Shown here: positions 9,290-24,864 of the stretch, in pieces
Numbering within the stretch: position 1 is the stretch's first letter
How the letters are laid out: each line of letters starts with the position of its first letter
Assembly: GCF_026283925.1 (NCBI RefSeq)
Contig: NZ_JAPDPF010000002.1
Span: 496,001-560,000 of the forward strand
Direction of reading: 5' to 3'
DNA: 64,000 nt
Origin: Dyella halodurans
Lineage (GTDB): Bacteria; Pseudomonadota; Gammaproteobacteria; Xanthomonadales; Rhodanobacteraceae
The notes under the pieces: model-generated
What the model was told of the DNA's origin: nothing
Databases searched by the model: none
Seen by the model: only the letters and a program-made list of their open reading frames with translations
Position numbers and translations under genes: made by a program

Positions 9290-9301
9290 GGTGCGATAGG
9301 C

Positions 9302-9721
9302 CTATTGTGCTCGGCTGACCATGAAGTCGACGGCGGCCCGGATCGCCGCATCGTCGAGGCTGGGATTGCCGCCGTGCGCCGGCATCGCCCCTTTCTCGCC
9401 GCTGAAACCCTGCAGGGCGTGCGTATACAACACGTCCTTGCCCTGGGCGATGCGTGGCGCCCAATCCGCCTTGTTGCCGAGTACGGGCGCGCCCACCGCC
9501 GGGCTGCCGTGACACATCACGCAGGTGCCCTGGTAGACCTTCTCGCCGGGTGACACAACCGCCGGCGCGGCAGGTGGAACTGGCGCTGCCGCTGCGCTTG
9601 CCTCGGCGTTCGGCGGCGAAGACGGCGGCGTGATGCTGGACGTTCCCTTGTCGCCACTGCAGGCAGCAAGAAGCAGGGCCACCGCAAAACAGAGCGGGCC
9701 ACCGAGGTGTCGGTCATTCAT
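9302..9721 (-). CDS. Class I cytochrome c lipoprotein, first gene of the nosR operon
   Basis: A 139-residue lipoprotein with lipobox LLAAC, then a 35-residue Ala/Pro/Ser linker and one c-type haem domain. The haem site is CVMCH, and the likely axial methionine is in MPAHGGNPSLDD, as in the cytochrome c5 family. It sits 12 bases before nosR and is the first gene of the leftward transcript. It is therefore a good candidate electron donor to NosZ (inference). The start at 9721 is chosen because the lipoprotein signal begins there; the upstream frame is promoter DNA. Confidence 0.87.
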   Translation of the reverse strand: MNDRHLGGPLCFAVALLLAACSGDKGTSSITPPSSPPNAEASAAAAPVPPAAPAVVSPGEKVYQGTCVMCHGSPAVGAPVLGNKADWAPRIAQGKDVLYTHALQGFSGEKGAMPAHGGNPSLDDAAIRAAVDFMVSRAQ

Positions 9722-9790
9722 CGATTGATTTCCCTGGATACGGACGCTGGTTGTCAGGCGCAGACACGGTGCGGTCGCGACATGGCGAGC

Positions 9791-9831
9791 ATGAAAACAG
9801 TGCGCCGCACATTTCTCTCTGATTTGCGTCA
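9791..9831 (-). promoter_or_regulatory. FNR-type site and -10 for the cytochrome c/nosR operon
   Basis: The site TGAT-TTGC-GTCA lies at 9820-9831. Reading leftward, a -10-like TTTCAT lies at 9791-9796. This puts the site centre at -41.5 from a predicted start at 9784, which is the class II FNR position. Found by eye. Confidence 0.6.
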
Positions 9832-9882
9832 GGCCTGCGGCAATCGATACCGATGCCCGCGATCGACAACCTGGACGCTGCG

Positions 9883-9923
9883 TGACTTGCGTCAAGGGAG
9901 CTTGCACGTGCGCGCCCTAGAGT
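9883..9923 (+). promoter_or_regulatory. FNR-type site and -10 for nosZ
   Basis: A perfect palindrome TGAC-TTGC-GTCA at 9883-9894 is followed 23 bases later by a -10-like TAGAGT at 9918-9923. The predicted start is 9930, which places the site at -41.5 and leaves a 35-base leader before nosZ. The same core occurs upstream of ubiU. Confidence 0.7.
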
Positions 9924-9964
9924 CCGCCCCGTCCAGAACCTGACGCGACAAAGAGGGATGTGCA

Positions 9965-11902
9965 ATGAGTGGGAAGCAAACACAAGACGAACTATCGGCA
10001 GTCGACCCCAGTCGGAGAAAGTTCCTGGGCACGACCGCCATGGCGGGACTGGCCGGCACCGGCGCCGTGCTCGGGCTGACCGCCTGCGGCGCGCCGGCAC
10101 CAGCGCAAGGCGACAAATCAGCGCCAGCCGCTGCAGCATCCGCGGAGAACGGCAAGTACGAGGTGGCGCCAGGCAAGCTCGATGCCTACTACCTCATTTC
10201 GTCCGGCGGCCATTCCGGCGAAGCACGCGTGCTCGGCTGCCCCTCGGGACGCACGATCAAGCGGATTCCCGTATTCAATATCGACCCCATGGTGGGCTGG
10301 GGCATCACCAACGAATCGAGGGCGATCATCGGCACGCGTCCGGACGGCCAGTTGAATTACTGGACGGGCGATACGCACCACGTGCATGGCTCGTACAACA
10401 ATGGCACTTACGACGGCAAGTATTTCTGGGTCAACGACAAGTTGAACGCCCGTGTCGCACGTATCCGCGGCGATACCTTTGAAACCGACAAGATCGTCGA
10501 GCTGCCGAATGTCCAGGGCCAGCACGGCCTGTTCCCCGACAAGCGCGATCCCGTCGACGCGTCAATCAACCACACCACGCGCGTCTTCGCTGGCGCCGAA
10601 TTCCACACGCCGCTGCCCAACGACGGCCGCGACAAGGAGTCGCCGGAAAAGTACGGCTGCCTGTTCACCTGTGTCGATGCCCTCAGCATGGAGGTCCGCT
10701 GGCAATGCCGCATCGACGGCAATATGGATCTGATCGCCACCAGCTATGACGGCAAGTACGCGGCCTCCGACCAGTACAACACCGAAGGTGGCGTGCATTA
10801 CGAAGACATGATGTCCGCCGAACAGGATGCCTGCGTATTCTTCAACATCGCCCGCATCGAGCAAGCCATCGCCGCTGGCAAGTCGACCACGATCGGCAAC
10901 TCGAAGGTGCCTGTGGTGGATGGTCGCAAGGAGGCCAACCCGGATCCGAAGACCTCGCTCACCTGCTATGTGCCGGTACCGAAGAACCCGCACGGCGTGA
11001 ACGCGAGCCCCGACGGCAAGTACTTCATCTGCTCCGGCAAGCTGTCGCCCACCTGCACCGTGATCGACCTGGCGCTGATCGACCAGTGGTTCAATGGCGA
11101 GCTGGCCAAGCCGCGTGATGCGGTGGTCGCCGAGCCCAACGTCGGACTTGGCCCCTTGCACACGGCGTTCGACGGCCGCGGCAATGCCTACACGACGCTG
11201 TTCCTGGACAGCAAGATCGCCAAATGGAGCGTCGACGGCGCGATCAAGCAGTTCAAGGGCGACGCCAGCGCCAAGGTGATCCTCGACACGATCGACGTCC
11301 AATACCAGCCCGGCCACGGCTTCACCTCGATGGGCGAGACCAACCAGCCTGATGGCCAGTTCTTCAATTCCGGCAACAAGTTCTCCAAGGACCGCTTCCT
11401 GCCGGTGGGGCCGTTGCACGTCGAGACCGAGCAGCTGATCGACATCTCCGGCGAGAAGATGAAGTTGATCCATGACCACTCGGCCTACTCGGAGCCGCAC
11501 GACGGCATCATCGTGCGCGCCGACATCATCAAGACGCGCCAGATCTATGACCTCGACGAGTTCCCCAACGCGGTCAAGACCAAGGAAGACAGCACCATCG
11601 AGCGCAACGGCAACAAGGTTCACATCAAGCTGATCTCGCAGGCGCCGGCGTTCTCGATGCGGGAGTTCACCGTCAAGAAGGGCGATATCGTCACCATCAC
11701 GCTCACCAACCACGACAAGGTGGAGGACCTCACCCACGGTTTCGGCATACCCAAATACAACATCAGCTTCATCGTCAACCCACTGGAAACGAAATCGGTC
11801 ACCTTCGTTGCCGACAAGCCCGGCGTGTTCTGGTGTTACTGCCTGCACTTCTGCCACGCCCTGCATCTGGAGATGCGTTCGCGGCTGATCGTGGAGGGCT
11901 AA
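9965..11902 (+). CDS. nosZ: NosZ, nitrous-oxide reductase (clade I, Tat-exported)
   Basis: The 645-residue terminal reductase of denitrification, reducing N2O to N2. A twin-arginine signal (SRRKFLG, residues 16-22) marks clade I and Tat export. The seven-bladed propeller holds the CuZ histidines, for example DTHHVHGSY, NPHGVNASPDGKY, GLGPLHTAFDG and HDHSAYSEPHD. The C-terminal cupredoxin carries the CuA ligands in FWCYCLHFCHALHLEM. Unusually, the signal ends in a lipobox-like L38-T-A-C41 followed by Gly, so the mature enzyme may be lipid-anchored. It is divergent from the cytochrome c/nosR operon. Confidence 0.96.
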   Translation: MSGKQTQDELSAVDPSRRKFLGTTAMAGLAGTGAVLGLTACGAPAPAQGDKSAPAAAASAENGKYEVAPGKLDAYYLISSGGHSGEARVLGCPSGRTIKRIPVFNIDPMVGWGITNESRAIIGTRPDGQLNYWTGDTHHVHGSYNNGTYDGKYFWVNDKLNARVARIRGDTFETDKIVELPNVQGQHGLFPDKRDPVDASINHTTRVFAGAEFHTPLPNDGRDKESPEKYGCLFTCVDALSMEVRWQCRIDGNMDLIATSYDGKYAASDQYNTEGGVHYEDMMSAEQDACVFFNIARIEQAIAAGKSTTIGNSKVPVVDGRKEANPDPKTSLTCYVPVPKNPHGVNASPDGKYFICSGKLSPTCTVIDLALIDQWFNGELAKPRDAVVAEPNVGLGPLHTAFDGRGNAYTTLFLDSKIAKWSVDGAIKQFKGDASAKVILDTIDVQYQPGHGFTSMGETNQPDGQFFNSGNKFSKDRFLPVGPLHVETEQLIDISGEKMKLIHDHSAYSEPHDGIIVRADIIKTRQIYDLDEFPNAVKTKEDSTIERNGNKVHIKLISQAPAFSMREFTVKKGDIVTITLTNHDKVEDLTHGFGIPKYNISFIVNPLETKSVTFVADKPGVFWCYCLHFCHALHLEMRSRLIVEG

Positions 11903-11910
11903 GCCTGGCG

Positions 11911-11935
11911 AGGCGCCGCCGTACTGGCGGCGCCT
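11911..11935 (+). terminator. Strong hairpin after nosZ
   Basis: A perfect 10-bp stem (AGGCGCCGCC / GGCGGCGCCT) with a 5-base loop starts 8 bases after the nosZ stop. No T-run follows, so it may act as a processing or attenuating stem between nosZ and nosX rather than a full intrinsic terminator. Confidence 0.5.
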
Positions 11936-11992
11936 CCCTCGCAACAGCCTTCCCATGCGCCCTGCACCACCCACCCCAGCTGAGCCCGATCG

Positions 11993-13120
11993 ATGACCTT
12001 CCGTCCGCGTGAGATTGCCACCCGCCTGCTACTGGTGCTGGCGGCAGCGCTGCTGCTGGCGGGCCTGCTGCTGTGGCTGCGGCGGCCACAGCTGATCCAG
12101 TCCGAGTTCCTGGTGTTTGGCACGCGCGCGCGCCTCGAACTGCTCGCACGCAATCGCGACGATGCCGAAGCCGCCCTGCAGGAGATTGGCCGGCTCTTTG
12201 TCTACGACCACCACACCTGGCACCCCTGGGAACCCAGCGAGCTGACCCGGCTCAACGAGGCCCTCGCCAGGGGTGAGTCCTACCGGGTGCCGGCGGTCGT
12301 GGCGGACCTGATTCGCCGGGCCCAGCAGGGCTACACGCAGAGCGACGGCTTGTTCAATGCCGCCGCGGGCCGCTTGATCAGCGCCTGGGGTTTCCACACC
12401 AGCAACTACCCCGTGCAGACGCCTGCGCCCGCGGCGGCGCAGGTACGCACCCTGCTCGCGTCCCATCCAGGCATGGACGACGTGCGCATCACCAGGGACG
12501 GCAGCATCAGCGCAACCAATCCCGACGTATCGCTCGATCTCAACGGACTCTCCGAAGGCTACGCGGCAGCGCAAGTCCGCCAGTTGCTCGCGCGGCACGG
12601 CATCCACGATGCACTGGTGTATATCGGTGGCTTCGTACTGGCGCTGGGACACAACGACAGCCAGTCGTGGCGTGTGGGCGTCAGCGCTCCGTCAGGCGTA
12701 CTTGGCAGCATCGACCTGGACGACAACGAAGCGCTCGCCTCCTCCGGCGACTACCAGCGCCACCGCGCGGGGGCGGTCGACCTGGGCCATATCGTCGATA
12801 CGCGGACCGGCTGGCCGCAGCGGGCCAGCGCGGCCACGAGCGTGCTCAGCGACGACCCAGTGTTCGCGGACATCGCCGCCACGGCGCTGATGGTGGCCGG
12901 CCCGGCCGGCTTCCAGCAGCTGGCCGACCATATGCATCTGAGCTGCGCGCTGCTGCTGGGCCACGACGGCGTGCTCTACATCACCCCTGGCATGCTCGCG
13001 CGACTGCACGGCAGCCCTCCCGCGGCCGGCCTGCTCATCATTCCCCAGCCATCGTCCGATTGCCGGCGCGGTGCGCGCGGAGATCGCGACGAGGGCGTGG
13101 TCGTACCGGAGGGGATCTAG
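11993..13120 (+). CDS. nosX: NosX/ApbE-type FAD:protein FMN transferase
   Basis: A 375-residue membrane-anchored periplasmic protein (N-terminal helix at residues 12-28) of the ApbE family. The family attaches FMN covalently to a Ser/Thr of partner flavoproteins. In nos loci the partner is NosR. Visible family blocks are SLDLNGLSEGYAA, DALVYIGGFVLALG, ALASSGDYQRH and the Mg-site region GHIVDTRTGWP. It follows nosZ by 90 bases with a hairpin between, so it is probably cotranscribed at a lower level. The last 40 residues are arginine-rich and not part of the usual family core. Confidence 0.9.
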   Translation: MTFRPREIATRLLLVLAAALLLAGLLLWLRRPQLIQSEFLVFGTRARLELLARNRDDAEAALQEIGRLFVYDHHTWHPWEPSELTRLNEALARGESYRVPAVVADLIRRAQQGYTQSDGLFNAAAGRLISAWGFHTSNYPVQTPAPAAAQVRTLLASHPGMDDVRITRDGSISATNPDVSLDLNGLSEGYAAAQVRQLLARHGIHDALVYIGGFVLALGHNDSQSWRVGVSAPSGVLGSIDLDDNEALASSGDYQRHRAGAVDLGHIVDTRTGWPQRASAATSVLSDDPVFADIAATALMVAGPAGFQQLADHMHLSCALLLGHDGVLYITPGMLARLHGSPPAAGLLIIPQPSSDCRRGARGDRDEGVVVPEGI

Positions 13121-13172: not shown

Positions 13173-13949
13173 TCACCGACCTATCAGTGACTTTGCCAAT
13201 TGACGCAGCTGATCCGGTTTCACCAGCACCAACTCCCGCCCGTCCACCGCGATCAGGCCTTGCTGGCGGAATCGGGTCAGCACCCGACTGACGGTCTCGG
13301 AGGCGAGTCGCAGGTAATTGGCGATGTCGCCGCGCGACATGCTCAGGCGAAAGCGCTCGCCGGAAAATCCACGTTCCGCAAAGCGATCGCCCAGATCGAT
13401 CAGAAAGGCCGCCACCCGCTCATCTGCACTGTGGTCACCCGCCAGTCTGCTGGCCGAGCCCAGTTCCTTGCTGAGCATCCGGAACAGCTCCTGTTGCACC
13501 GCCGGCATGCGCGATGCCAGCTGACTCATGGCGGGAAATGAGAACCGGCAGAAATGCGCCGTATCGAGCGCAATCGCATCGCAAGGGAATCGCTCGGGAT
13601 AGATGGCGTTGAGGCCGATCACTTCGCCGGGCAAGTAGAAACCGAGCACATGTTCGCGCCCATCACCGTCCAGAACCCGTGTCTTCACCATGCCGGCGCG
13701 CACGGCGTAGATGGCACGGAAGGGCGCGTCGGTACGGAACACATATTCATCGGCATGGTACGGCCCGATGTGCTCCACCAGGCAGTGCAGTTCGGCCAGC
13801 TGCGGCTTGGCGTAGCCCACGCTCAGGCATGCGCTGGAAAAGGCACAGGTGCGGCAGAAGTGGGTCTCGTCGCCATCATCCGCGATCGGGCTGGGTTCTT
13901 CTGGCAACCGACCGGATGGGATGTGGGTGCGCATGGAAAAGGGGCTCAT
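13173..13949 (-). CDS. fnr: FNR-type oxygen-sensing transcription regulator (first paralogue)
   Basis: A 258-residue CRP/FNR family activator. Cluster ligands match E. coli FNR: Cys32-X2-Cys35-X5-Cys41 plus Cys134 in HFCRF. It should therefore carry an O2-labile 4Fe-4S cluster and not be a haem-type DNR. The recognition helix reads SETVSRVL, with the Glu-x-x-Ser-Arg of FNR at 218-222. The dimer helix and beta-roll (VLGFYLPGEVIGLNAIYP) are intact. An alternative start is 13934; a much longer open frame upstream is not protein-like. It converges with nosX. Confidence 0.9.
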   Translation of the reverse strand: MSPFSMRTHIPSGRLPEEPSPIADDGDETHFCRTCAFSSACLSVGYAKPQLAELHCLVEHIGPYHADEYVFRTDAPFRAIYAVRAGMVKTRVLDGDGREHVLGFYLPGEVIGLNAIYPERFPCDAIALDTAHFCRFSFPAMSQLASRMPAVQQELFRMLSKELGSASRLAGDHSADERVAAFLIDLGDRFAERGFSGERFRLSMSRGDIANYLRLASETVSRVLTRFRQQGLIAVDGRELVLVKPDQLRQLAKSLIGR

Positions 13950-14067
13950 CGGATGGCGAATATCGCAAGAGTAACCTGTCGGCGCCTTGCCGACACCCGC
14001 GCCGTCGCCCCGGATGGGCGGGCCCCAGCATGCATGCCCATGGCGACCCGGCGTCCTGGCGTTTGCC

Positions 14068-14108
14068 TGACCTTCGTCAAGGCCATGAGCGTTCCCGGCA
14101 TGGACCAT
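14068..14108 (+). promoter_or_regulatory. FNR-type site upstream of the decarboxylase gene
   Basis: TGAC-CTTC-GTCA at 14068-14079, followed by a -10-like GACCAT at 14103-14108, gives a site at -41.5 from a predicted start at 14115. In the opposite direction (towards fnr) no -10 is seen at the matching distance, so rightward control is more likely. Confidence 0.45.
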
Positions 14109-14223
14109 GGGCGCCTGCCTTGTGGAGATACGCCATGGACCCCGTTCGAAAGCACACCCGGGAATGTACCCGTCGGGTACGGTCAATGTCCCAGCCGCAG
14201 GCTTGCTGGCGAGGTGGGGTGAT

Positions 14224-16242
14224 ATGAGCGCGGCGCAGCCCATGTCAGCCACGGCCGGGCACGACCATGCCCTGGATGCCTGCTTTCTTGGCCCGTATGG
14301 CGAAAACGACACGCTGCTGGAGAAGCTCCTGGTGGAGTTTCTGCGTGACCATGTGTATTGGCGGCGGAACTTTCACCCCGAGGATCCGCCGGCCATCGCC
14401 ACGACGGCCGCGCAACACCCCGATTACCTGGCTTATGAGGCGCGCATGCGCCGGGAACTGCATAGGCTATCGGCCGCCCTGAAAAAGTCGGTGCCATTCC
14501 ATAGCCCGCGCTATATCGGCCACATGGCCTCGGATCTGCTGCTGCCGGGCCTGGCGGCGCAGATGCTCACCCTGCCCTACAACCCGAACAATGTCAGCGA
14601 AGATGCGGCGCCAGTAACAGTGGAGCTGGAGGTCAAGGTCGGGCTGCAGCTCGCGCGCATGCTCGGCTACCCCAATGACCCGAATCAGGACCTGTGCGCC
14701 CTGGGTCATCTCACCTCGGGCGGGACGGTCGCCAACTATCAGGCCCTGCGCCTCGCGTTGGCGCTCAAGGCGTTTCCGGTGGCCTTGCGTGCGGCGCAAG
14801 TTCCGGAAATCGAGCTACCTGCGGATGATTGGAGCGCCTTCAACCTCGCTTCCGCGGATGGCATTGCCCTCTTGACCCAATGGCAACGCTGGCTGTCTAC
14901 GCTGCCGCCGGCCGAGCGACACCACTGGCAAGCTCGCGTGGAGGCCGAGCGCATCGAGCAACGCGGCCTGGTGGACTTCTTCACCGCCCATTCGCAACTG
15001 TCGGTACCACTCGTCCTCGCGCCCGCGACGGCTCACTACTCATGGAGCAAGGGCCTGAAGCTTCTCGGCCTGGGCCGAAACCAACTGGAATTGCTGCCGA
15101 CACGAAGCATGCGGCTGGATCCGGAAGCACTTCGCGCGACGCTGAGGCAATGTGCGCGTGAGCGGCGATCCGTCCTGATGTGCGTAGCGGTGCTGGGCGG
15201 CACCGAATACGGCACCATCGACCCTGTAGATGGCGTGCTCGCCGCGCGCGCTGAAGCGCGCACTCTTGGCCTGGATTTCGCCGTGCACGTGGACGCCGCA
15301 TGGGGCGGTTACCTGGCCACCCTATTCCGCCACGCAGACGGCAGCCTTCGCTCGCGCGACGAAGTCGGGGCGGAATACATCCAGTTTCCGACCCCCGCGG
15401 TTCACGCGGCTTTCGCGGCGCTAGGCGATACCGATTCCGCAACGGTGGATCCGCACAAGCTCGGTTATCTGCCCTACGGCGCAGGCGCCTTTATTTGCCG
15501 CGATCACCGCGCCATGGCCTTGCTCGCCGAGCGCGCCGACTACGTCTTTCAAGCCGGCACGCCGGCCGACTACATGACCCGCTACCGCAATATCGGCCAG
15601 TTCACTCCGGAAGGCTCCAAAGCGGGCGCCGTCGCTGCAGCCGCCTACGTGACCCATCAGGTGCTGCCCTTGCACCATGCGCAATTCGGCCGACTGCCAC
15701 GCGCCACCATACGCGCAGCAGAGGAATTCTATGCGCGGGCACGCCGCTTTGCGATCGACGTCGCTGACGTCGTAGCCGTGCTGGTGCCCTTCGTACCAGA
15801 CAGCAACCTGGTTTGCCTGGCGCTCAATCCCGTGGGCAACCGTGATGTACGCGCCGCCAACGTCTTCATGAGCACCCTGCAGGGCATGCTCAAGTGCGAA
15901 CCCGAGCAGCCGCTGCAGTCCAAGGAGTTCTTCGGCTCGGGCACCAGCCTGCGACCGGAGATGCTGGGGCCTGCCGAGACCGATCGCATCTTCACGGGAC
16001 TGGGACTCGACGCCATTGATCCCAACCAGAATCCTGAGCACGACCACCTGAGGATTCTTCGACACACCTTGATGAACCCGTATCTCGTGAATCGGGAAAA
16101 CGGCATGAACTATATCGACGGCTATTTCGACTTCCTCGAGCGAAGCATACGCGCGCTGCTTGCGCGCTCACCCTGGCATCGCGAATCAGGCATCGTCGCC
16201 GAGGCCGGTCCAAGGCCGGCATCGGAAGGTCGCGCTGCATGA
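14224..16242 (+). CDS. PLP-dependent decarboxylase, tyrosine-decarboxylase-like
   Basis: A 672-residue group II amino-acid decarboxylase most like bacterial tyrosine decarboxylases (DHVYWRRNFHP, RYIGHM, VDAAWGGYLATLF). The PLP lysine is K412 in TVDPHKLGYLPYGAG. The stacking histidine lies in ATAHYSWSKG (H271) and the cofactor aspartate is D357. The C-terminal part (MNYIDGYFDFLE) matches the long bacterial form. The substrate could be tyrosine, aspartate or another amino acid. The start at 14224 has GGGGTG upstream; a 39-residue upstream extension is not protein-like. An FNR-type site precedes it. Confidence 0.85.
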   Translation: MSAAQPMSATAGHDHALDACFLGPYGENDTLLEKLLVEFLRDHVYWRRNFHPEDPPAIATTAAQHPDYLAYEARMRRELHRLSAALKKSVPFHSPRYIGHMASDLLLPGLAAQMLTLPYNPNNVSEDAAPVTVELEVKVGLQLARMLGYPNDPNQDLCALGHLTSGGTVANYQALRLALALKAFPVALRAAQVPEIELPADDWSAFNLASADGIALLTQWQRWLSTLPPAERHHWQARVEAERIEQRGLVDFFTAHSQLSVPLVLAPATAHYSWSKGLKLLGLGRNQLELLPTRSMRLDPEALRATLRQCARERRSVLMCVAVLGGTEYGTIDPVDGVLAARAEARTLGLDFAVHVDAAWGGYLATLFRHADGSLRSRDEVGAEYIQFPTPAVHAAFAALGDTDSATVDPHKLGYLPYGAGAFICRDHRAMALLAERADYVFQAGTPADYMTRYRNIGQFTPEGSKAGAVAAAAYVTHQVLPLHHAQFGRLPRATIRAAEEFYARARRFAIDVADVVAVLVPFVPDSNLVCLALNPVGNRDVRAANVFMSTLQGMLKCEPEQPLQSKEFFGSGTSLRPEMLGPAETDRIFTGLGLDAIDPNQNPEHDHLRILRHTLMNPYLVNRENGMNYIDGYFDFLERSIRALLARSPWHRESGIVAEAGPRPASEGRAA

Positions 16243-16550: not shown

Positions 16551-17549
16551 ATGCATTTGGTCTGTCCCGCCGGCAACCTGCCGGCTTTGCAAGCGGCGAT
16601 CGACGCCGGCGCCGATGCGGTCTACGCGGGCTTTCGCGATCAGACCAACGCACGCGCTTTTCCAGGACTCAATTTCAGTGACGAAGAGCTGCGCCAGGGC
16701 ATTGCCTACGCACATGCTCGAGGTCGCAAGGTCTACCTGGCTCTCAATACCTATCCGGACAGTGCCCGACTCGCACTGTGGCAAGCAACGGTGGACAAGG
16801 CGGCCAGCTTTGGCTGCGATGCGATCATCGCCGCGGAAATGGCCGTGCTCGATTATGCCTCGCGCAGTTATCCCCAACTGGCGCGACATCTCTCGGTGCA
16901 AGGTTCGGCCACCACGGCACCCGCCTTGCGCTATATGCACGAGCGCTTCGGCATCGAGCGAGCGGTGTTGCCTCGCGTGCTGTCGATCCAGCAAGTGGAG
17001 CGGCTGTGCGAGCAGTCGCCCGTGCCACTGGAAGTGTTCGCGTTCGGCAGCCTGTGCATCATGGTCGAAGGTCGCTGCCAGCTTTCCAGCTACGTCACGG
17101 GAGCATCACCGAATCGCCACGGCGTGTGTTCGCCAGCGCACTTCGTACGCTGGGACGAACACCCCGACGGTGGGCGCAGCGTGCGCCTGAACCAGGTGCT
17201 GATCGATCGCTTTGGGCAATCCGAACCCGCCGGCTATCCCACCGTCTGCAAAGGTCGCTTTGTCGTCGGCGACGAAACATTCCACGCCCTGGAAGAGCCT
17301 ACCAGCCTCAATACCCTGGAGCTGCTGCCACGCCTGGCGCAGGCCGGTGTGGCGGCACTGAAGATTGAAGGCCGGCAGCGCGGCGTGGCCTACGTGGCGT
17401 CGGTCACCCGAACCTGGCGGGACGCCCTGGATCGCTACCGCGCCTCGCCGCAGCACTGGTCGGCGAAGCCGACGTGGCAACAAGCCCTGTCACAGCATGC
17501 CGAGGGTCACCAGACCACGCTTGGCCCGTATCACCGCAACTGGCACTGA
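16551..17549 (+). CDS. ubiU: UbiU, O2-independent ubiquinone hydroxylation protein (U32 family)
   Basis: A 332-residue U32-peptidase-family protein, one residue longer than E. coli UbiU. The start MHLVCPAGNLPALQAAI aligns with it without gaps. The four 4Fe-4S ligands are C169, C176, C193 and C233, virtually the E. coli positions. With UbiV it forms the heterodimer that hydroxylates ubiquinone precursors without oxygen, using prephenate as hydroxyl source in the known system. It is followed after 3 bases by ubiV. Confidence 0.95.
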   Translation: MHLVCPAGNLPALQAAIDAGADAVYAGFRDQTNARAFPGLNFSDEELRQGIAYAHARGRKVYLALNTYPDSARLALWQATVDKAASFGCDAIIAAEMAVLDYASRSYPQLARHLSVQGSATTAPALRYMHERFGIERAVLPRVLSIQQVERLCEQSPVPLEVFAFGSLCIMVEGRCQLSSYVTGASPNRHGVCSPAHFVRWDEHPDGGRSVRLNQVLIDRFGQSEPAGYPTVCKGRFVVGDETFHALEEPTSLNTLELLPRLAQAGVAALKIEGRQRGVAYVASVTRTWRDALDRYRASPQHWSAKPTWQQALSQHAEGHQTTLGPYHRNWH

Positions 17550-17552
17550 ACC

Positions 17553-18446
17553 ATGCACACAATGAAGCTCAGCCTTGGGCCATTACAGTATTTCTGGCCG
17601 CGAGAACGCACCCTATCGTTCTATCGCGAGGCGGTGCAGTGGCCGCTTGACATCATTTACCTCGGCGAGACCGTGTGCAGCAAGCGTCGCCAGCTTGGCA
17701 CGCGCGACTGGATCGCCCTGGCCGCGGAACTCGCCGAGAGCGGCAAGCAGATCGTCCTGTCTTCGCTGGCGCTGATCGAGGCCGAGTCCGAACTTGGCAT
17801 GCTTCAGCGCCTGATCGAGGATGGGCGTTTCCTGATCGAGGCCAATGATCTTTCGGCGGTGCAGTTATGCAAGGCCCGCGGCGCGTCCTTCGTCGCGGGC
17901 CCCTCGCTCAATGTCTACAATCACCGCGCACTGGCGCTGCTCATGAGCGACGGCCTGCAACGCTGGGTCCCCGGCGTCGAGCAGGGAGAAACGCTGCTTC
18001 GCGAACTGCGCACCGCTGTCCTGGCCGATGGCCTTGGCATGCCCGAGCTGGAAGTCATCGCCTTCGGCCGCCTGCCGCTGGCCTACTCGGCGCGTTGCTT
18101 TACTGCCAGGGCATTGGACGTAGCTAAAGACCAATGCGGTTTCCGCTGCATCGAACATCCTGACGGCCTGCCGCTCGCCACACGCGAAGGCCAAGCCTTC
18201 CTTCGCATCAACGGCATCCAGGTCCAAGGGGAGCAGATTACGGATCTAGGCCCTGAGTTGCCGGTGCTGCGCGAGCTCGGCATCGATATCTTGCGGCTGT
18301 ACCCGCAGGCGGAGGGCATGCAGGATGTGGTCGCGCATTACGACCTTGCCCTCCGCTCGCCGACGCCACCACCGCGCATTGCCAGCCGCAACGGCTATTG
18401 GCATGGTGAGCCTGGCATGCAGCCGGTGGCCACCGCGCAGGCCTGA
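17553..18446 (+). CDS. ubiV: UbiV, O2-independent ubiquinone hydroxylation protein
   Basis: A 297-residue partner of UbiU. E. coli UbiV motifs are plain: DIIYLGETVCSKRR (first cluster Cys), SGKQIVLSSLALIEAESELG, and SARCFTAR followed by DQCGFRC with the other three cluster cysteines. The start could be ATG at 17553 or MKLSLGP at 17562; the second matches the E. coli N-terminus better. It is translationally adjacent to ubiU, so the two should be made together. Tail residues after 285 are not conserved. Confidence 0.95.
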   Translation: MHTMKLSLGPLQYFWPRERTLSFYREAVQWPLDIIYLGETVCSKRRQLGTRDWIALAAELAESGKQIVLSSLALIEAESELGMLQRLIEDGRFLIEANDLSAVQLCKARGASFVAGPSLNVYNHRALALLMSDGLQRWVPGVEQGETLLRELRTAVLADGLGMPELEVIAFGRLPLAYSARCFTARALDVAKDQCGFRCIEHPDGLPLATREGQAFLRINGIQVQGEQITDLGPELPVLRELGIDILRLYPQAEGMQDVVAHYDLALRSPTPPPRIASRNGYWHGEPGMQPVATAQA

Positions 18447-18520: not shown

Positions 18521-19960
18521 CTAGGCGGCACTGTCCACGCGATGGTGCGAACCCAGGCTGCCGCTTCGCTCCAATGCCGAAGCCAGTATTCGCTGGGCCA
18601 GCCGTGCTTGCCACGCCCTGGAACTCCAATCCGCGTTCTGCCGCATGGCGCGCTGCAGCGTTTCCTTTTCGCGCACCGGTCCCGCAGCTTCCCATAACCG
18701 CTGGCGAAGTTCCGCCAGCGGTTGCTCCCATAGAGGTTCGCCACGCTCGACCCAGCGAGAACCACCTGTGCAAGGACCCACGAAGGATTGGGACAAATGC
18801 TGGCCAAGCCGCCTTCCACAGAGCAGGCCTTCCAGCAGCGAATTGCTGGCCAGGCGGTTGGCACCATGCACCCCATTGCATGCCACTTCCCCGACGGCGT
18901 ACAGACCGGGAACCGTGGTACGTCCATCCCCGTCCGTCGCCAGGCCGCCCATGTGGAAATGCGCCGCGGGCGCCACCGGTATCCAGTCACGACGCGGATC
19001 CACGCCATGCGACAGGCATGTCGCCAGCACGGTGGGAAAATGCCGGGCCCATTCGCCTGCTACCGCGCTGGCATCGAGCCAGGCACGGCCATCTGCGTTT
19101 TGCGACTGCCACACGCGGCGTGCCACGACGTCGCGCGGCGCCAGATCACCTAGCGGATGCACACCGTCCATCAGGAGTCTGCCGTCGGCATGACGGAGAC
19201 GAGCTCCCGCACCGCGCAGTGCTTCGGTGATCAAAGGCAGGCAGTGGCCGCCGCTTACATCCAGCGCCGTAGGGTGAAACTGGACAAATTCGAGATCGCG
19301 CGCAGCCGCGCCAGCAGCCAGGCCCAGGGCCATGCCGCTTCCGTCGGCACCCGGGGGATTGCTCGTACGCGCGAAGAGTGCGCCGACGCCACCGGTGGCA
19401 AGCACGACCGCCGCGGCCTGGATCTCCTCGCAGCGACCACGGGCATCACGCGTACGCACGGCGCAGACGCGGCCATCACGCAGCAGCAGCGCCTCCACAT
19501 CCACGCCGCCGCGCCATTGGATGTGGGAGGAGCGTTCGGCCTGCTCGCGCATGGCGCGGATTACCTCCGCACCGCTGGCATCGCCGCCGGCGTGCACCAC
19601 CCGCGCAGCACCATGACCACCCTCTCGGCCCAACAGCAGGCGGCCGTTCGCATCACGGTCAAAAGCCACCCCGATTTGCGCAAGCCACTCGATGGCAGCG
19701 GGCGCGTTCATGCATAGCCAACGCACCATCGCCACATCGTTGTGGCCAGCCCCGGCGACCAAGGTGTCGGAAACGTGGGCTTCGACGCCATCCGTGGCAT
19801 CGAGCGCAGCGGCAATGCCGCCTTGAGCCAGCGCACTGGCGCTACCGCCGCCGTCGTGGACGCGGCAAAGCACTCGCACCGGCATGGGTGCAGCCGCCAG
19901 TGCGGTAGCCAGGCCCGCCACGCCGCTACCAACGACAACGATGGGTCCCCGCGGCCGCAT
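18521..19960 (-). CDS. nadB: NadB, L-aspartate oxidase
   Basis: A 479-residue FAD enzyme oxidising L-aspartate to iminoaspartate, the first step of de novo NAD synthesis. It can use fumarate or quinone when oxygen is absent. The FAD site is VVVGSGVAGLATAL at the N-terminus; further blocks are SASALAQGGIAAA, FVQFHPTAL, APAAHFHMGGLATD and VGEVACNGVHGANRLASNSLLEGL. It is shorter than E. coli NadB (540) mainly at the C-terminal helical domain. The start overlaps the nadA stop by one base. Confidence 0.93.
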   Translation of the reverse strand: MRPRGPIVVVGSGVAGLATALAAAPMPVRVLCRVHDGGGSASALAQGGIAAALDATDGVEAHVSDTLVAGAGHNDVAMVRWLCMNAPAAIEWLAQIGVAFDRDANGRLLLGREGGHGAARVVHAGGDASGAEVIRAMREQAERSSHIQWRGGVDVEALLLRDGRVCAVRTRDARGRCEEIQAAAVVLATGGVGALFARTSNPPGADGSGMALGLAAGAAARDLEFVQFHPTALDVSGGHCLPLITEALRGAGARLRHADGRLLMDGVHPLGDLAPRDVVARRVWQSQNADGRAWLDASAVAGEWARHFPTVLATCLSHGVDPRRDWIPVAPAAHFHMGGLATDGDGRTTVPGLYAVGEVACNGVHGANRLASNSLLEGLLCGRRLGQHLSQSFVGPCTGGSRWVERGEPLWEQPLAELRQRLWEAAGPVREKETLQRAMRQNADWSSRAWQARLAQRILASALERSGSLGSHHRVDSAA

Positions 19961-20985
19961 CAAACCGTCTCGCGCCGGCCTATGGCAAGCATGCGTTGCA
20001 ACGCTGCACCTGCGCGATGGCCGATATCCGCTGGAACCTCGACGGGATGCTTCAAGTCGCGCAAGGCCGCATAGATGTTGGGCAAGGTGATCTGTTGCAT
20101 GTGAGGGCACAGCTGGCAGGGCTTGACGAATTCTGTGGCAGGGAACTGGGCACGGAGGTTGTCGGCCATCGAGCATTCGGTGATCAGCGCCACCCGCGCC
20201 GGCTTCTCCCGCTCCAGCCACCGCCCCATGGCCGTGGTCGAGCCGACGAAATCCACTTCCGCGAGCACCTCCGGCGAGCATTCCGGGTGCGCCACCAGCC
20301 GGGCATCGAAGCGCTCACGCGCGTGTCGCGCCTGCTGGGCGGTGAACTTCTCGTGCACCTCGCAGCGCCCGTCCCAGAGCACCAGTTCCACATCCGTCTG
20401 CGAGGCAACGTAGCGACCGAGAAATTGGTCCGGCAGGAAAATCACTTTCGACGACTGCATCGACTCGACGATCTGTACCGCATTGGCGGACGTGCAAATG
20501 GCGTCAGACTCGGCCTTCACCGCGGCCGAGGTGTTGGCGTAGCTGACCACGGGAACGCCCGGATGGCGCGCGCGCAACGCGCGCACATCCTCAGCCGTGA
20601 TCGAGGAGGCCAGCGAGCAACCGGCCTCCATGCTCGGGATCAGGATCGTCTTGTGAGGCGCGAGGATCTTCGCGCTCTCGGCCATGAAATGAACGCCGCA
20701 CACGACGATGAGGTCGGCGTCACAATCCGCCGCCGCCTGCGCCAATCCAAGCGAATCGCCCGTGACATCGGCCACGCCGTGGAATATCTCCGGCGATTGG
20801 TAGCTATGCGCCATGATCACCGCGCCTCGCTGCTTTTTCAGCCGGTTGATGGCATCGATCCACGGCAGGTGCATGGCCGCCTCAATGCACGGAATCATGG
20901 TTTCCAGTAACGCCTTCAGTCCGGCGTACTCCTGCTCGAGTTCGTCGCGCCAAGCCGGCACGGGCAAACCTTCGGACACGGTCAT
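19960..20985 (-). CDS. nadA: NadA, quinolinate synthase
   Basis: A 341-residue 4Fe-4S enzyme that condenses iminoaspartate with dihydroxyacetone phosphate to quinolinate. It shows AHSYQSPEIFHGVADVTGDSLGLA, CGVHFMAESAKIL and IPSMEAGCSLA (first cluster Cys), then DGRCEVHEKF, AHPECSPEV (second) and VKPCQLCPHMQQITL (third). It lies 50 bases after the ubiT fusion gene and just before nadB, so it belongs to a four-gene leftward operon. Confidence 0.95.
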   Translation of the reverse strand: MTVSEGLPVPAWRDELEQEYAGLKALLETMIPCIEAAMHLPWIDAINRLKKQRGAVIMAHSYQSPEIFHGVADVTGDSLGLAQAAADCDADLIVVCGVHFMAESAKILAPHKTILIPSMEAGCSLASSITAEDVRALRARHPGVPVVSYANTSAAVKAESDAICTSANAVQIVESMQSSKVIFLPDQFLGRYVASQTDVELVLWDGRCEVHEKFTAQQARHARERFDARLVAHPECSPEVLAEVDFVGSTTAMGRWLEREKPARVALITECSMADNLRAQFPATEFVKPCQLCPHMQQITLPNIYAALRDLKHPVEVPADIGHRAGAALQRMLAIGRRETV

Positions 20986-21035: not shown

Positions 21036-21914
21036 TCAAGCCAACTCACCCCGATGCGCTGCTCTCGCAGCCCGCGCCAGACGCGCACCCCGGTTGAGCA
21101 CAATGCGTATTCCCAGCGGCACTCGGTCCCATGGCAGCCTTTCGAGCAAATTGCGCGCCGTGAGGCCAAGCTCCGTATCTCCCGTCAGCACGAGCGCACG
21201 CTGGAAGAACAAGGTATCGGCGTCTTCCAGGCGTCCCGCGAGCAGCAGTAAATTTGTAGCGCTGCCACTTACCAGGGCGTCGGGCTCTTCATTGGTGACG
21301 CACAGCTTCCCGTTCCTGAGCACGAAAACCCACCGCAGGCGCAGGTCGCGTACATCGATGCCCAGCCGACGGTCGCGCATGAAGTCGAGGGATCCATCCT
21401 CGAGTGGCGCCGCCAGCACGCTGGACACCGCAGTCTCAAGCAAGCGTCGCTGCCAGTCCCGGGGCAGTACGCGCAGCATGGGAGCAACGCGTCCAGGTGG
21501 CGGAAGTATCCGCAGCAGGCGTGGCACAAGATTTGAAGTCAGTGTGTCGAGGGTCATGGTGCCGTGTATGGTCGCCGATGAAATCGACTCGCCACCCTGA
21601 TGCAAATCAAGCTGGCCAGCATCGACGCCACCATCGATGACGACGCCCTGCTGACGGCAACCCTCACGAATGACCAAATCCAGAAGTTGTGCGGCCGTAT
21701 CGAGCGGTACGTCGATCCTGGCGGCGAGCCTGGACGCCCGCAGGTGCATCTGCCGTTCGCGACCATGATCGCGCGTTGGCGCACCAGCGCGCTGCTTGAG
21801 CGTAGCCACGGCGCGCACTATCCGTCGCCGCACCGACAGCAATACGAGGAGGCTGTCGTCGACTCGGTCAATAGCGCCGCGGGCGCGCGCCAGGGCGATC
21901 CGCTCAAGCGACAT
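21036..21914 (-). CDS. ubiT: Chorismate mutase (AroQ)-UbiT (SCP2) fusion protein
   Basis: A 292-residue two-domain protein. Residues 1-92 form an AroQ-type chorismate mutase. The E. coli catalytic set R11, R28, K39, D48, R51, E52, Q88 appears here as R12, R29, K40, D49, R52, E53, Q89, a constant +1 shift. Residues ~120-292 are UbiT (YhbT), an SCP2 lipid-binding domain, with DGSLDFMRDRRLGIDVRDL, EDADTLFFQRALVLTGDTELGL and VPLGIRIVLNRG. UbiT is the accessory factor of O2-independent ubiquinone synthesis. The frame is continuous through a linker of about 28 residues. The start at 21914 overlaps the upstream gene by 11 bases. Confidence 0.88.
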   Translation of the reverse strand: MSLERIALARARGAIDRVDDSLLVLLSVRRRIVRAVATLKQRAGAPTRDHGRERQMHLRASRLAARIDVPLDTAAQLLDLVIREGCRQQGVVIDGGVDAGQLDLHQGGESISSATIHGTMTLDTLTSNLVPRLLRILPPPGRVAPMLRVLPRDWQRRLLETAVSSVLAAPLEDGSLDFMRDRRLGIDVRDLRLRWVFVLRNGKLCVTNEEPDALVSGSATNLLLLAGRLEDADTLFFQRALVLTGDTELGLTARNLLERLPWDRVPLGIRIVLNRGARLARAARAAHRGELA

Positions 21915-22299
21915 CGGCTGTATCCCCTGTGTCCGCGGATAGCGCCTTCGCAGCCGGCAATACCTCCTGTGCATACACTCGCTGCGCCTCGACGACGTCG
22001 AAATCGGCATGCTGCCGCTTCTTGACCCCATAGTCGGAGAGTACGAGATGGGTATCGGCAACCACGCCTGCATTCGAAAGGCATGCCGAAACGCATTTCA
22101 GGACGCACCCGTCCAACGCCAGAATGCGTCGCCCACTCTGGGCAGTGCGCACCAATCCGGTGACGCCTCCGCCCACGCCTGCAATGCATGACATTTCAGC
22201 GGCGTGATCACGATCCAGCTTCAAGGCAAGGTGATTTGCCATCTGCGCGGCACTGGAACAACCGGAGCAGGAGTAGACGAGCGGAAGCTTGGCCTTCAT
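21904..22299 (-). CDS. DGC-domain putative zinc-binding protein
   Basis: A 131-residue cysteine-rich protein. It has YSCSGCSSAAQMANHLA near the N-terminus, MSCIAGVGG in the middle, and the family signature LDGCVLKCVSAC. This resembles the DGC family (PF08859), whose function is not established; metal or cluster binding is expected. The start at MKAKLPL is chosen because the signature begins there. It is the first recognisable gene of the operon DGC-ubiT-nadA-nadB. An open frame of about 87 codons upstream ends in an ATGA overlap with this start, but its product looks unreal. Confidence 0.75.
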   Translation of the reverse strand: MKAKLPLVYSCSGCSSAAQMANHLALKLDRDHAAEMSCIAGVGGGVTGLVRTAQSGRRILALDGCVLKCVSACLSNAGVVADTHLVLSDYGVKKRQHADFDVVEAQRVYAQEVLPAAKALSADTGDTADVA

Positions 22300-22667: not shown

Positions 22668-23432
22668 CTATGGGGTAAGTACGCCCTGCCCAAGCGCAAA
22701 GAGGCCATCACGATCGAGCACGGTCAGCACCCTTCCATCGATGTCGATCAGGCCTTTGCTGCGAAGGCGTCCTAGAACGCGACTTACCGTTTCCGCGGCA
22801 AGCCTGAGGTAATTGGCGATGTCACAGCGCGACATGCGCAAGATGAACCGGGTACCCGAGAATCCGCGCGCAGCATAGCGACGACTCAAGTCGGCCAGGA
22901 ACGCAGCCATGCGCTCCTCGGCACTGTAATCGGCCGCCAGCTGGCTGGCCATGCCGAGCTCCCTGCTGATGAGGCGAAACAAATGCTGTTGAATCGCCGG
23001 CATGCTCGCGGCGAGCGCACTCATGGCCGGGAACGACAATCGGCACAGCTGCGATGTTTCCAAGGACACCGCATCACAGGGAAACTGATCCGGATAGATC
23101 GCATTGAGGCCTACGACCTCGCCCGGAAGATAAAACCCAAGCACTTGCTCGCGGCCGTGCTTGTCCACCACACAGGTTTTCACCGCGCCGGACCGCACGG
23201 CGAAGATCGCCCGGAACGGGTAGCCGGTCCTGAAAATGTGCTCGCCACTCCGAAATGGCCCGACGTGCTCGACCAGGCAATGCAGCGCAGCCAATTCGGG
23301 TTTGCCGTATCCCATGGTCTGACAGGATCCGGCGAATGCGCAGGCACCACAGAAGTGAGCCGCGTCACCGTCGTCCGCAATGGACGGGTCAAGCGATGCG
23401 GGAAGGCTGGCCAAGGGTCCTGAGTAATGCAT
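22668..23432 (-). CDS. FNR-type oxygen-sensing transcription regulator (second paralogue)
   Basis: A 254-residue paralogue of the regulator at 13173, with long shared stretches (ELxxLHCLVEHxGP, LGFYLPGEVxGLNAIYP). The cluster ligands are complete: C28, C31, C37 and C130. The recognition helix is AETVSRVL (E214, S217, R218). It lies 31 bases after hemN on the same strand, so it may be cotranscribed with hemN and thus indirectly FNR-controlled. A TTGAC-N5-GTCAA palindrome lies just upstream. The longer open frame upstream overlaps hemN and is not used. Confidence 0.9.
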   Translation of the reverse strand: MHYSGPLASLPASLDPSIADDGDAAHFCGACAFAGSCQTMGYGKPELAALHCLVEHVGPFRSGEHIFRTGYPFRAIFAVRSGAVKTCVVDKHGREQVLGFYLPGEVVGLNAIYPDQFPCDAVSLETSQLCRLSFPAMSALAASMPAIQQHLFRLISRELGMASQLAADYSAEERMAAFLADLSRRYAARGFSGTRFILRMSRCDIANYLRLAAETVSRVLGRLRSKGLIDIDGRVLTVLDRDGLFALGQGVLTP

Positions 23433-23452
23433 GCTCGTCGCGCAACCTGTTG

Positions 23453-23467
23453 TTGACCCGTTGTCAA
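23453..23467. promoter_or_regulatory. TTGAC-N5-GTCAA palindrome between hemN and the second fnr
   Basis: A perfect inverted repeat of five bases per arm, 21 bases upstream of the fnr paralogue, overlapping the hemN stop. The spacer is five bases instead of the four seen elsewhere, so it may be a weak or non-FNR operator, or chance. Confidence 0.3.
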
Positions 23468-24864
23468 ATAGTGCGCGAGTAGCGCACCGACGGTGTTTCG
23501 TTTGGCAAATACGCGTCAAAGCACATGGCGATGCTGCGCAGCAGGAGGCGCCCTTTGGGGGTGACGTGAATGGCGCGCTCATCCACCGTGACGAGACCGT
23601 CCTCGTCCAGTCGCCGCAAGCGCTCCAGTTCGGGTGCGAAGTACTCGTTGAATATGAGTCGATGCTGGTCGCCGAATGCTTGCCTGTCGAGCTGCCCATC
23701 GCACATCAGCTTGCCAATGAGCTTTCGGCGGATCAGGTCGTCCTCGTCCAGATGCAGGCCGCGCGCGATGGGCAATTTGCCGGCATCGAGCGCCGCGAAG
23801 TAGCCGAAGAGATCGCGCGCGTTTTGGCTGTAGCTGTTACCGATTCGACCTATCGCGCTGACCCCAAGACCTACGATGTCGCAGTCGCCGTGCGTGGAGT
23901 AGCCCTGGAAATTGCGCTGCAGCGTACCTGCGCGCTGCGCCCGTGCCAGCTCGTCGTCGGCACGCGCGAAATGATCCATGCCAATGTAGACGTAGCCGGC
24001 GTCGGTCAATCGATCGAGCGCGCGACCGAACAGTTCCAGGCGAACTCCCGGTTCCGGCAGCTCGTCGGCCACAATCTGCTGCTGTGCCTTGAACAGGTTG
24101 GGCAGATGCGCATAGCCATAAACCGCGACACGGTCAGGATTGAGATCGATCACCTCATCCAGGGTGCGATCGAAGCCAGCCAGGGTTTGCCGCGGCAACC
24201 CATAGATCAAGTCGACACTGGCCGACACGAAGCCAGCGGCACGCGCGGCGTCCAGGACCTCTCGCGTCTCAGCGACGCTCTGAATTCGATTGACCGCCTG
24301 TTGCACGGCCGGATCGAAATCCTGGATGCCCACCGAAATTCGATTGAAGCCAAGATCCGCCAACCCACGCACGTAGTCGCCATTGGCGAAGCGCGGATCG
24401 ATCTCGATGCCAAATTCACGATCGCTCGCTGAGCTGAAGTTCCAATGCTGCGCGAGCGACCCGACCAGGTCCCTCATGCGCGGCAGGTCGAGGAAATTCG
24501 GCGTGCCGCCGCCGAAGTGCAACTGCCTGACGACGCGATCAGGATCGAACTTCGAGGCCATCAGTTCGATTTCGCGATACAGGCGCTCCAGGTAGACGTC
24601 GGCCTTGCCGATGTCGCGCGTGATGACCCTGTTGCAGCCGCAATAGAAACATGGGCTCATGCAGAACGGCACGTGCACATAGATCGACAATGGGCGCGGA
24701 ATGGGCTCGTCGTTGGAGACCCGGATGACGCTGCTTAGTGCCGCCTCGTCAAAGTCACCACGAAAATGCGGTGCGGCCGGGTAGCTGGTGTAGCGCGGCC
24801 CGTTGGTGTCGTAGCGAGCGATCAGTTCGGCGTCGAACTCGGGGGTTTGGCTGGCCTGGTTCAT
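23464..24864 (-). CDS. hemN: HemN, oxygen-independent coproporphyrinogen III dehydrogenase
   Basis: A 466-residue radical-SAM enzyme that decarboxylates coproporphyrinogen III to protoporphyrinogen IX without oxygen. The N-terminal ARYDTNGPRYTSYPAAPHF matches true HemN rather than the HemW group. Cluster cysteines are C68, C72 and C75 in CMSPCFYCGC. Other blocks are LHFGGGTPNFL, ISVGIQDFD and DLIYGLPRQT. It supplies haem for the cytochromes used in anaerobic respiration. Its start lies 42 bases from the centre of an FNR-type site, so the predicted mRNA would begin at or very near the ATG. Confidence 0.95.
   Translation of the reverse strand: MNQASQTPEFDAELIARYDTNGPRYTSYPAAPHFRGDFDEAALSSVIRVSNDEPIPRPLSIYVHVPFCMSPCFYCGCNRVITRDIGKADVYLERLYREIELMASKFDPDRVVRQLHFGGGTPNFLDLPRMRDLVGSLAQHWNFSSASDREFGIEIDPRFANGDYVRGLADLGFNRISVGIQDFDPAVQQAVNRIQSVAETREVLDAARAAGFVSASVDLIYGLPRQTLAGFDRTLDEVIDLNPDRVAVYGYAHLPNLFKAQQQIVADELPEPGVRLELFGRALDRLTDAGYVYIGMDHFARADDELARAQRAGTLQRNFQGYSTHGDCDIVGLGVSAIGRIGNSYSQNARDLFGYFAALDAGKLPIARGLHLDEDDLIRRKLIGKLMCDGQLDRQAFGDQHRLIFNEYFAPELERLRRLDEDGLVTVDERAIHVTPKGRLLLRSIAMCFDAYLPNETPSVRYSRTI

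Follow-up and report, generated by a model that had tools for sequence, protein, structure and literature searches.

A gene of Dyella halodurans that joins a chorismate mutase (CM) to UbiT raises the question of why an enzyme that makes prephenate should be fused to an accessory protein of ubiquinone synthesis. The gene, cm-ubiT, lies in the window analysed here, a stretch of 64,000 nucleotides (positions 496,001 to 560,000 of contig NZ_JAPDPF010000002.1). Our comparisons make it reasonably probable that CM-UbiT serves O2-independent ubiquinone hydroxylation as a dedicated source of prephenate, with an FNR-type promoter in its linker that would give two products. The gene and its parts are located as follows.

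21036..21914, minus strand: cm-ubiT fusion gene, 292 aa (Pfam and NCBIfam matches; AGGGGA 5' of the start ATG)
21648..21881, minus strand: AroQ CM domain, residues 12-89 (Pfam CM_2)
21557..21647, minus strand: inter-domain linker, predicted to be partly disordered and holding the putative embedded promoter
21036..21557, minus strand: putative short product, UbiT alone from Met120, 173 aa (in-frame ATG after the FNR-type box)

The frame from 21036 to 21914 is open on the minus strand, and the same register on the plus strand gives stops. Pfam CM_2 matched residues 12-89 of CM-UbiT (50 bits, cut-off 27), Pfam SCP2 matched residues 172-257 (50.8 bits, cut-off 21.3), and the NCBIfam UbiT model NF047962 matched residues 147-263 (121.5 bits, cut-off 46.9), which bore out the claim of a preliminary description of this DNA, made without naming a strand, that one frame joins an AroQ CM to the SCP2 protein UbiT. 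The predicted structure of the CM domain has the three-helix AroQ fold, and linker residues 100-121 are predicted to be disordered (predicted local distance difference test, pLDDT, below 50). Judged by its model matches, the CM domain is a member of a subfamily without an NCBIfam name.

Alignment with E. coli PheA-CM placed R11, R28, K39, D48, R51, E52 and Q88, which we take to be the AroQ catalytic residues in E. coli numbering, at R12, R29, K40, D49, R52, E53 and Q89 of CM-UbiT. The offset is a constant +1 at all seven, as the preliminary description had stated; the S84 position, which it did not list, is Gly85 in the window and A, G or S across the family. All seven residues were invariant in 121 of 121 near homologues, and in the fusions found across the order six of the seven were invariant in 32/32 and the glutamine was present in 31/32. 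Comparison of 26 disjoint pairs of genes with 80-98.5% UbiT identity showed that the proportion of nonsynonymous differences (pN) was lower than that of synonymous differences (pS) in the CM domain of every pair, with pooled pN/pS values of 0.31 for the CM domain, 0.70 for the linker and 0.18 for UbiT. By these ratios the CM domain is under purifying selection, and since residues and selection both fit a working enzyme, the mutase of CM-UbiT looks competent.

The preliminary description had also proposed a search for AroQ and SCP2 architectures across genomes, and had named a sequencing error joining two separate genes as the way in which the fusion might fail. In a sample of 250 genomes of the order, 68 had UbiT over the cut-off; 32 of these carried the fusion (12 of family f1, 15 of f2, one of f3 and four of f4) and the other 36 were unfused. 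Both domains were present in all 120 homologues listed of the 902 found, and 79 of 80 named loci were fused, these being the best 80 of 363 relatives of a query that was an alignment of fusions, which biases the count towards fusions. The named loci belong to Dyella, Rhodanobacter, Frateuria, Oleiagrimonas, Arenimonas, Lysobacter, Thermomonas, Dokdonella, Pseudoxanthomonas, Stenotrophomonas, Xanthomonas and others. The 32 genomes and the 79 loci rule out a sequencing or assembly error as the source of the fusion, and the proposed search thus returned a true, conserved one. CM-UbiT is a conserved gene of Rhodanobacteraceae/Lysobacteraceae, and one old fusion event in one order is the simplest reading. 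No CM gene was found beside an unfused ubiT in the fetched loci, many of the in-order stretches being only about 3.3 kb long. A search with the CM domain only, of limited sensitivity, gave a single free-standing relative among 19 candidates (P0121, 124 aa), which may be a gene or a fragment. The sole unfused locus of the 80 was that of Arenimonas daejeonensis (L182, 5727-6612), where the CM and UbiT halves are in different, overlapping frames. Two cm-ubiT loci with equal match scores were found at opposite ends of the record of Dyella jiangningensis (L111 and L112, CP007444.1) and may be a duplicate or an assembly overlap.

We next compared the occurrence of UbiU with that of the fusion. UbiU was found in all 32 fused genomes (in one, which is 67% complete, as a partial match) and in none of the 23 genomes of families f1 and f2 without UbiT over the cut-off, nor was the fusion seen in these 23. 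UbiU was also not found in genome G184 (24 f1/f2 genomes without a sound UbiT in all), where the CM is gone and the remaining UbiT frame is without some conserved residues. The fusion goes with the UbiUV pathway, and this gene content backs the link to prephenate-dependent UbiUV chemistry that the preliminary description had drawn. The mutase-less UbiT remnant of G184 (L068, 8077-8688, minus strand) stands beside a DGC-domain gene and is a decaying copy.

In four genomes (G246, G233, G207 and G116), which are 99-100% complete and have UbiU, CM-UbiT was the only CM_2 match. No PheA prephenate dehydratase was found in any of the four by a search whose control was positive in all 14 named genomes; no AroH-type CM, no U32 protein other than UbiU and the adjoining UbiV, and no CmoA over the cut-off was found in them either, and in G116 UbiU alone passed the Pfam U32 search. 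Chorismate synthase was kept in all four. A search for prephenate dehydrogenase with PF02153 (cut-off 26.5) gave no match in G233 and weak matches in G246, G207 and G116 (26.7, 23.6 and 22.5 bits, respectively); that of G246 clears the cut-off by 0.2 bits, that of G116 falls below it, and the G246 and G207 matches are better classed as hydroxyisobutyrate-type dehydrogenases. Among the prephenate users searched for, UbiUV were the only ones found in these genomes, with the proviso that TyrA may have been missed. As the four genomes span two families and three genera, repeated loss of PheA is probable. In G160, a fifth genome, pheA is broken over several frames (G160:C3:57709-58375) and cm-ubiT is intact; the frame breaks may be sequencing errors. 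Two other loci (L137, 11450-12514, and L163, 11352-12437, both minus strand) have a dehydrogenase with a C-terminal CM, resembling prephenate dehydrogenase, about 4.5 kb from cm-ubiT, and in a Mizugakiibacter metagenome-assembled genome (L171, 6834-8207, minus strand) a CM joined to an apparent TyrA-type dehydrogenase adjoins cm-ubiT.

We then considered the linker. In a class II FNR promoter, TTGAT-N4-ATCAA lies about 41.5 bp before the transcription start, and a -10 element follows at the corresponding distance. The linker of CM-UbiT is poorly conserved save for Asp103...Gln106, a Met/Ile spot and one Met, and as DNA these spots correspond to the TTGAT-N4-ATCAA box, to a hexamer resembling a -10 element and to an ATG. 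The first two elements have these positions in the window.

21597..21610, minus strand: FNR-type box TTGATTTGCATCAG, 9/10, in the codon frame Asp103...Gln106, conserved in place across the family
21568..21573, minus strand: putative -10 element GACCAT, weak (3/6 to TATAAT), at the A/T positions of the family

The third is the in-frame ATG at 21557, which is Met120. Sites with at most one mismatch to the FNR box number three in the 64 kb, with 0.7 expected, and TTGATTTGCATCAG is one of them.

The constraint on the linker DNA was measured on 95 distinct fused genes, obtained from 111 fused frames by dropping exact duplicates, the copy of the window gene (L002) being excluded. Boxes of at least 8/10 were found 53 times in 7.8 kb of linker and eight times in the remaining 68 kb; when the -10 letters were also demanded, the counts were 52 and four. 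We also examined 33 representatives that share less than 75% identity and were required to have an in-frame box scoring 7/10 or better; this requirement biases upward the box scores and partly the wobble counts inside the box, while the -10 letters, the ATG spacing and the count of box density are free of it. Although the codon before Asp103 stands for nine different residues among the representatives, it ends in T in 32/33 of them (mean 4.4, maximum 12 in 5000 synonymous resamplings), and the third base of the codon before Gln is T in 33/33 (mean 11.7, maximum 21). In a -10 element the two positions under the strongest constraint correspond to +31 and +35 from the box centre; +31 is A in 33/33 and +35 is T in 32/33, although the residue at +31 varies (M, T, I, K, S or N). 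In 30/33 an in-frame ATG is located at +43 or +46. In its layout the linker DNA resembles a class II FNR-type promoter; the transcript would begin about 41-42 nt past the box centre, leaving 1-5 nt to the ATG. Box, -10 and in-frame ATG together suggest that the gene probably also yields a mutase-free UbiT, and two UbiT forms, controlled differently by oxygen, are probable for most fused genes.

Not all fusions have this arrangement. We assigned genes to an internal type when an in-frame linker box of at least 7/10 was accompanied by the -10 letters and, failing this, to an upstream type when a box of at least 8/10 with a -10 preceded the gene. Of the 95 genes, 65 were of the internal type and ten of the upstream type; the latter include Xanthomonas chitinilytica, Pseudoxanthomonas wuyuanensis and Lysobacter soli, and two of their boxes are perfect. 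The upstream type clusters in the UbiT tree inside an internal-type background; the only other genes in the cluster are two with an upstream box of 7/10. The arrangement with the box before the CM is probably derived, with modest support from a tree that was made by a quick method, does not place the outgroup on one side of a branch and has several long branches. In this group the mutase would be tied one-to-one to UbiT.

Unfused ubiT genes give an indication of where the linker promoter came from. In family f8, unfused UbiT has a 9-10/10 box in 10/14 loci, mostly with TATACT and with the ATG about 60 nt past the box. In family f12, one unfused UbiT (L053) has its ATG at +42 from an 8/10 box, a near-leaderless layout like that of the linker of the fusions, and another (L044) has by eye a similar layout, its best-scoring box being elsewhere; unfused UbiT of family f10 had no clear box. 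This layout at unfused ubiT suggests that the linker promoter is most simply the old ubiT promoter, kept after the CM joined in front. The unfused UbiT of f12 fall among the fused ones in the tree, with modest support, and a later loss of the CM in this family is possible. Boxes of at least 8/10 also precede ubiU in 24/40 loci, mostly 45-66 nt from the start. In the window the best-scoring site before ubiU (8/10) is just 28 nt from the start, and by eye CTGACTTGCGTCAG (6/10) is 65 nt before it.

The genes around cm-ubiT in the window are as follows.

16551..17549, plus strand: ubiU (NF047963, 533 bits, cut-off 440)
17553..18446, plus strand: ubiV (NF047965, 351.6 bits, cut-off 275)
18521..19960, minus strand: nadB-like gene, downstream of nadA (Pfam FAD_binding_2; the name nadB is a reading of this match)
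19960..20985, minus strand: nadA, downstream of cm-ubiT (Pfam NadA)
21904..22299, minus strand: DGC-domain gene, upstream of cm-ubiT (Pfam DGC, 112.7 bits; start placed by eye)
22668..23699, minus strand: Crp/Fnr-family regulator (open reading frame, true start uncertain)
23464..24864, minus strand: hemN, oxygen-independent coproporphyrinogen oxidase (TIGR00538, 555 bits)

The start of cm-ubiT overlaps the DGC-domain gene by 11 nt. A DGC gene was present in 52 of 111 fused loci, many of which are short, and 50 of these 52 had it adjacent to cm-ubiT in the same orientation. This overlap and adjacency suggest that the long form is probably transcribed from an upstream promoter and coupled to the DGC gene. 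An FNR box before the DGC gene was considered and judged unconvincing: candidate sites stood in scattered, inconsistent places in 29 of 41 DGC loci, the other 12 being dropped when the start motif was not found. The site before the DGC gene in the window is TTGACGCACGTCAG, 7/10.

In the explanation that we favour, the mutase domain would turn chorismate into prephenate beside UbiT, an SCP2 protein and the presumed carrier of ubiquinone intermediates for UbiUV, and UbiUV would use this prephenate as oxygen donor in O2-independent hydroxylation. FNR would bind the linker, which would act as a class II promoter starting a near-leaderless transcript for UbiT alone, so that two products could be made: the upstream promoter would give UbiT with the mutase, and the linker promoter, induced along with ubiUV when oxygen is low, UbiT without it. 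In the group with the box before the mutase, the whole fusion would be induced. More tentatively, and with rather less confidence than we give to a dedicated prephenate source, cm-ubiT may be an oxygen-controlled dual-product gene, whose long form makes prephenate by the carrier (in some species as the sole CM, and solely for ubiquinone) and whose linker promoter adds mutase-free carrier. The main idea of the preliminary description, delivery of prephenate to the anaerobic quinone complex, gains comparative support from these results, while its picture of a single fused anaerobic protein proved incomplete on account of the probable linker promoter.

Several observations weigh against a dedicated prephenate source. 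A second CM_2 match is present in 28/32 fused genomes (in G160 as a mere fragment), so that prephenate is mostly on hand anyway, and the best score of CM-UbiT with the NCBIfam CM equivalogs is 44 bits against a cut-off of 120. The fusion was seen in one order only: in a sample of 398 genomes of the phylum, 193 had UbiT over the cut-off (a few of them within the order), and 40 UbiT loci outside the order had neither a fused CM nor a CM gene in the fetched DNA, which reached up to about 8 kb on each side, 20 of the 40 having been picked mainly for long open frames and likewise showing no CM in their UbiT frames. The UbiT pathway therefore runs elsewhere without a fused mutase. Since in most members the linker promoter would increase mutase-free UbiT, strict one-to-one channelling is also less likely, and 20 of the 95 genes match neither promoter type by the fixed rule, although three of these (L159, L161 and L172) have a 9/10 upstream box without the -10 pattern. 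The linker site could nevertheless be real and the functional anaerobic product be the short UbiT only, the long form being minor or aerobic with some other use of prephenate. We hold this to be unlikely, while giving it real weight: box, -10 and ATG are placed as in a ubiT promoter, and the unfused UbiT of f12 have a similar layout (L053, and L044 by eye), but the FNR box of one group precedes the mutase, so that the fusion itself would be induced, and the fusion occurs only where UbiU was found.

A mutase half that serves ordinary phenylalanine and tyrosine synthesis, its joining to UbiT being incidental, would account for the full AroQ residue set. The dehydrogenase search leaves room for it, as PF02153 is insensitive: a clear TyrA in G160 (471.6 bits with NF006457) scored just 34.8 bits, and no TyrA was found with PF02153 in G121 and G075, both of which keep PheA. 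TyrA was thus possibly missed in the four PheA-less genomes, where tyrosine could then be made from CM-UbiT prephenate, and PheC-type dehydratases were not part of the dehydratase search there. We nonetheless consider this explanation improbable, because CM-UbiT is kept in four genomes without a detected prephenate dehydratase, the fusion was unseen in the 23 f1/f2 genomes without UbiU, the CM of G184 is gone where UbiT decayed, and a free-standing relative of this CM was found once only; that single relative comes from a database search, and the UbiT-less genomes were not themselves searched for one. AroQ proteins are intertwined dimers, and the mutase half would dimerise UbiT; it could be a dimerising or chorismate/prephenate-binding module that regulates UbiT, or one that splits chorismate between UbiC and other routes. 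The changed Ser84 position would agree with such a role, which we rate about as improbable as amino acid synthesis, since residues needed for catalysis, beyond folding, are invariant and binding alone would not obviously need all of them. That the domain is instead an isochorismate-pyruvate lyase-like enzyme of the same fold is very improbable, because the matching sequence models are CMs and the full mutase residue set is present.

A dedicated prephenate source bears on a question that is still open, the use of prephenate by the U32 hydroxylases (PMC11574389, in its available portion). In the available text of the 2023 mBio paper, prephenate as oxygen donor was proposed and no more than that (PMC10470549). 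The accessible part of the 2024 review states as established, citing PNAS 2024 e2321242121, that prephenate supplies the hydroxyl oxygen, and adds that catalysis of the reaction by U32 proteins lacks direct evidence (PMC11574389); the related TrhP is counted as support for this donor (PMC6599085, available text). A prephenate-making enzyme fused to an accessory protein of UbiUV, and the only CM_2 found in four genomes in which no PheA was detected, is independent support for it, and the natural fusion is a ready construct for tests of supply or channelling. The literature searched, as far as its text was accessible, contained no paper on a CM-UbiT fusion; the PNAS 2024 article, known through the review that cites it, might mention one. 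In Joint Genome Institute annotation such proteins already bear the label 'predicted lipid carrier protein YhbT/chorismate mutase', so annotation pipelines have met the architecture.

Comparison with known systems showed both likenesses and differences. The C-terminal half of CM-UbiT, like E. coli UbiT (YhbT), passes the UbiT equivalog cut-off and co-occurs with UbiU, and E. coli UbiT has 174 aa (PMC6747719, available portion), against 173 aa for the putative short form. Unlike E. coli UbiT, CM-UbiT has an N-terminal mutase, and most members have the FNR-type box inside the coding sequence. The fold and the catalytic residue set are common to AroQ mutases and their fusions (PheA, TyrA, DAHP (3-deoxy-D-arabino-heptulosonate 7-phosphate) synthase-CM), but the partners in those fusions are shikimate or Phe/Tyr enzymes, whereas the partner here is a lipid-carrier protein of quinone synthesis. 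The ubiT-ubiU fusion of Zymomonas mobilis, described in the accessible text of PMC6747719, is also a natural UbiT fusion; it joins UbiT to a hydroxylase subunit, whereas CM-UbiT joins it to a source of the oxygen donor. In the FNR-regulated ubiTUV loci of Pseudomonadota, the FNR box is upstream of ubiT (PMC11707229). The box of CM-UbiT is inside the open reading frame, and that survey, by the part of its text available, looked 450 bp upstream of annotated start codons and would probably miss linker sites. The linker hints at a way in which a promoter may persist within a gene fusion and yield a pair of protein forms that standard annotation hides.

Two Crp/Fnr-type regulators, at 13173-14312 and 22668-23699, flank the ubiUV/cm-ubiT region and lie no more than about 10 kb apart. 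Against the Fnr subfamily model (cut-off 228) the two proteins scored below the cut-off, with 191 bits for that at 22668-23699 and 181 bits for the other. No narG was found in the genome of the window, and positions 5844-13120 hold a nitrous oxide reductase cluster (nosD, nosR, nosZ and an apbE-like gene).
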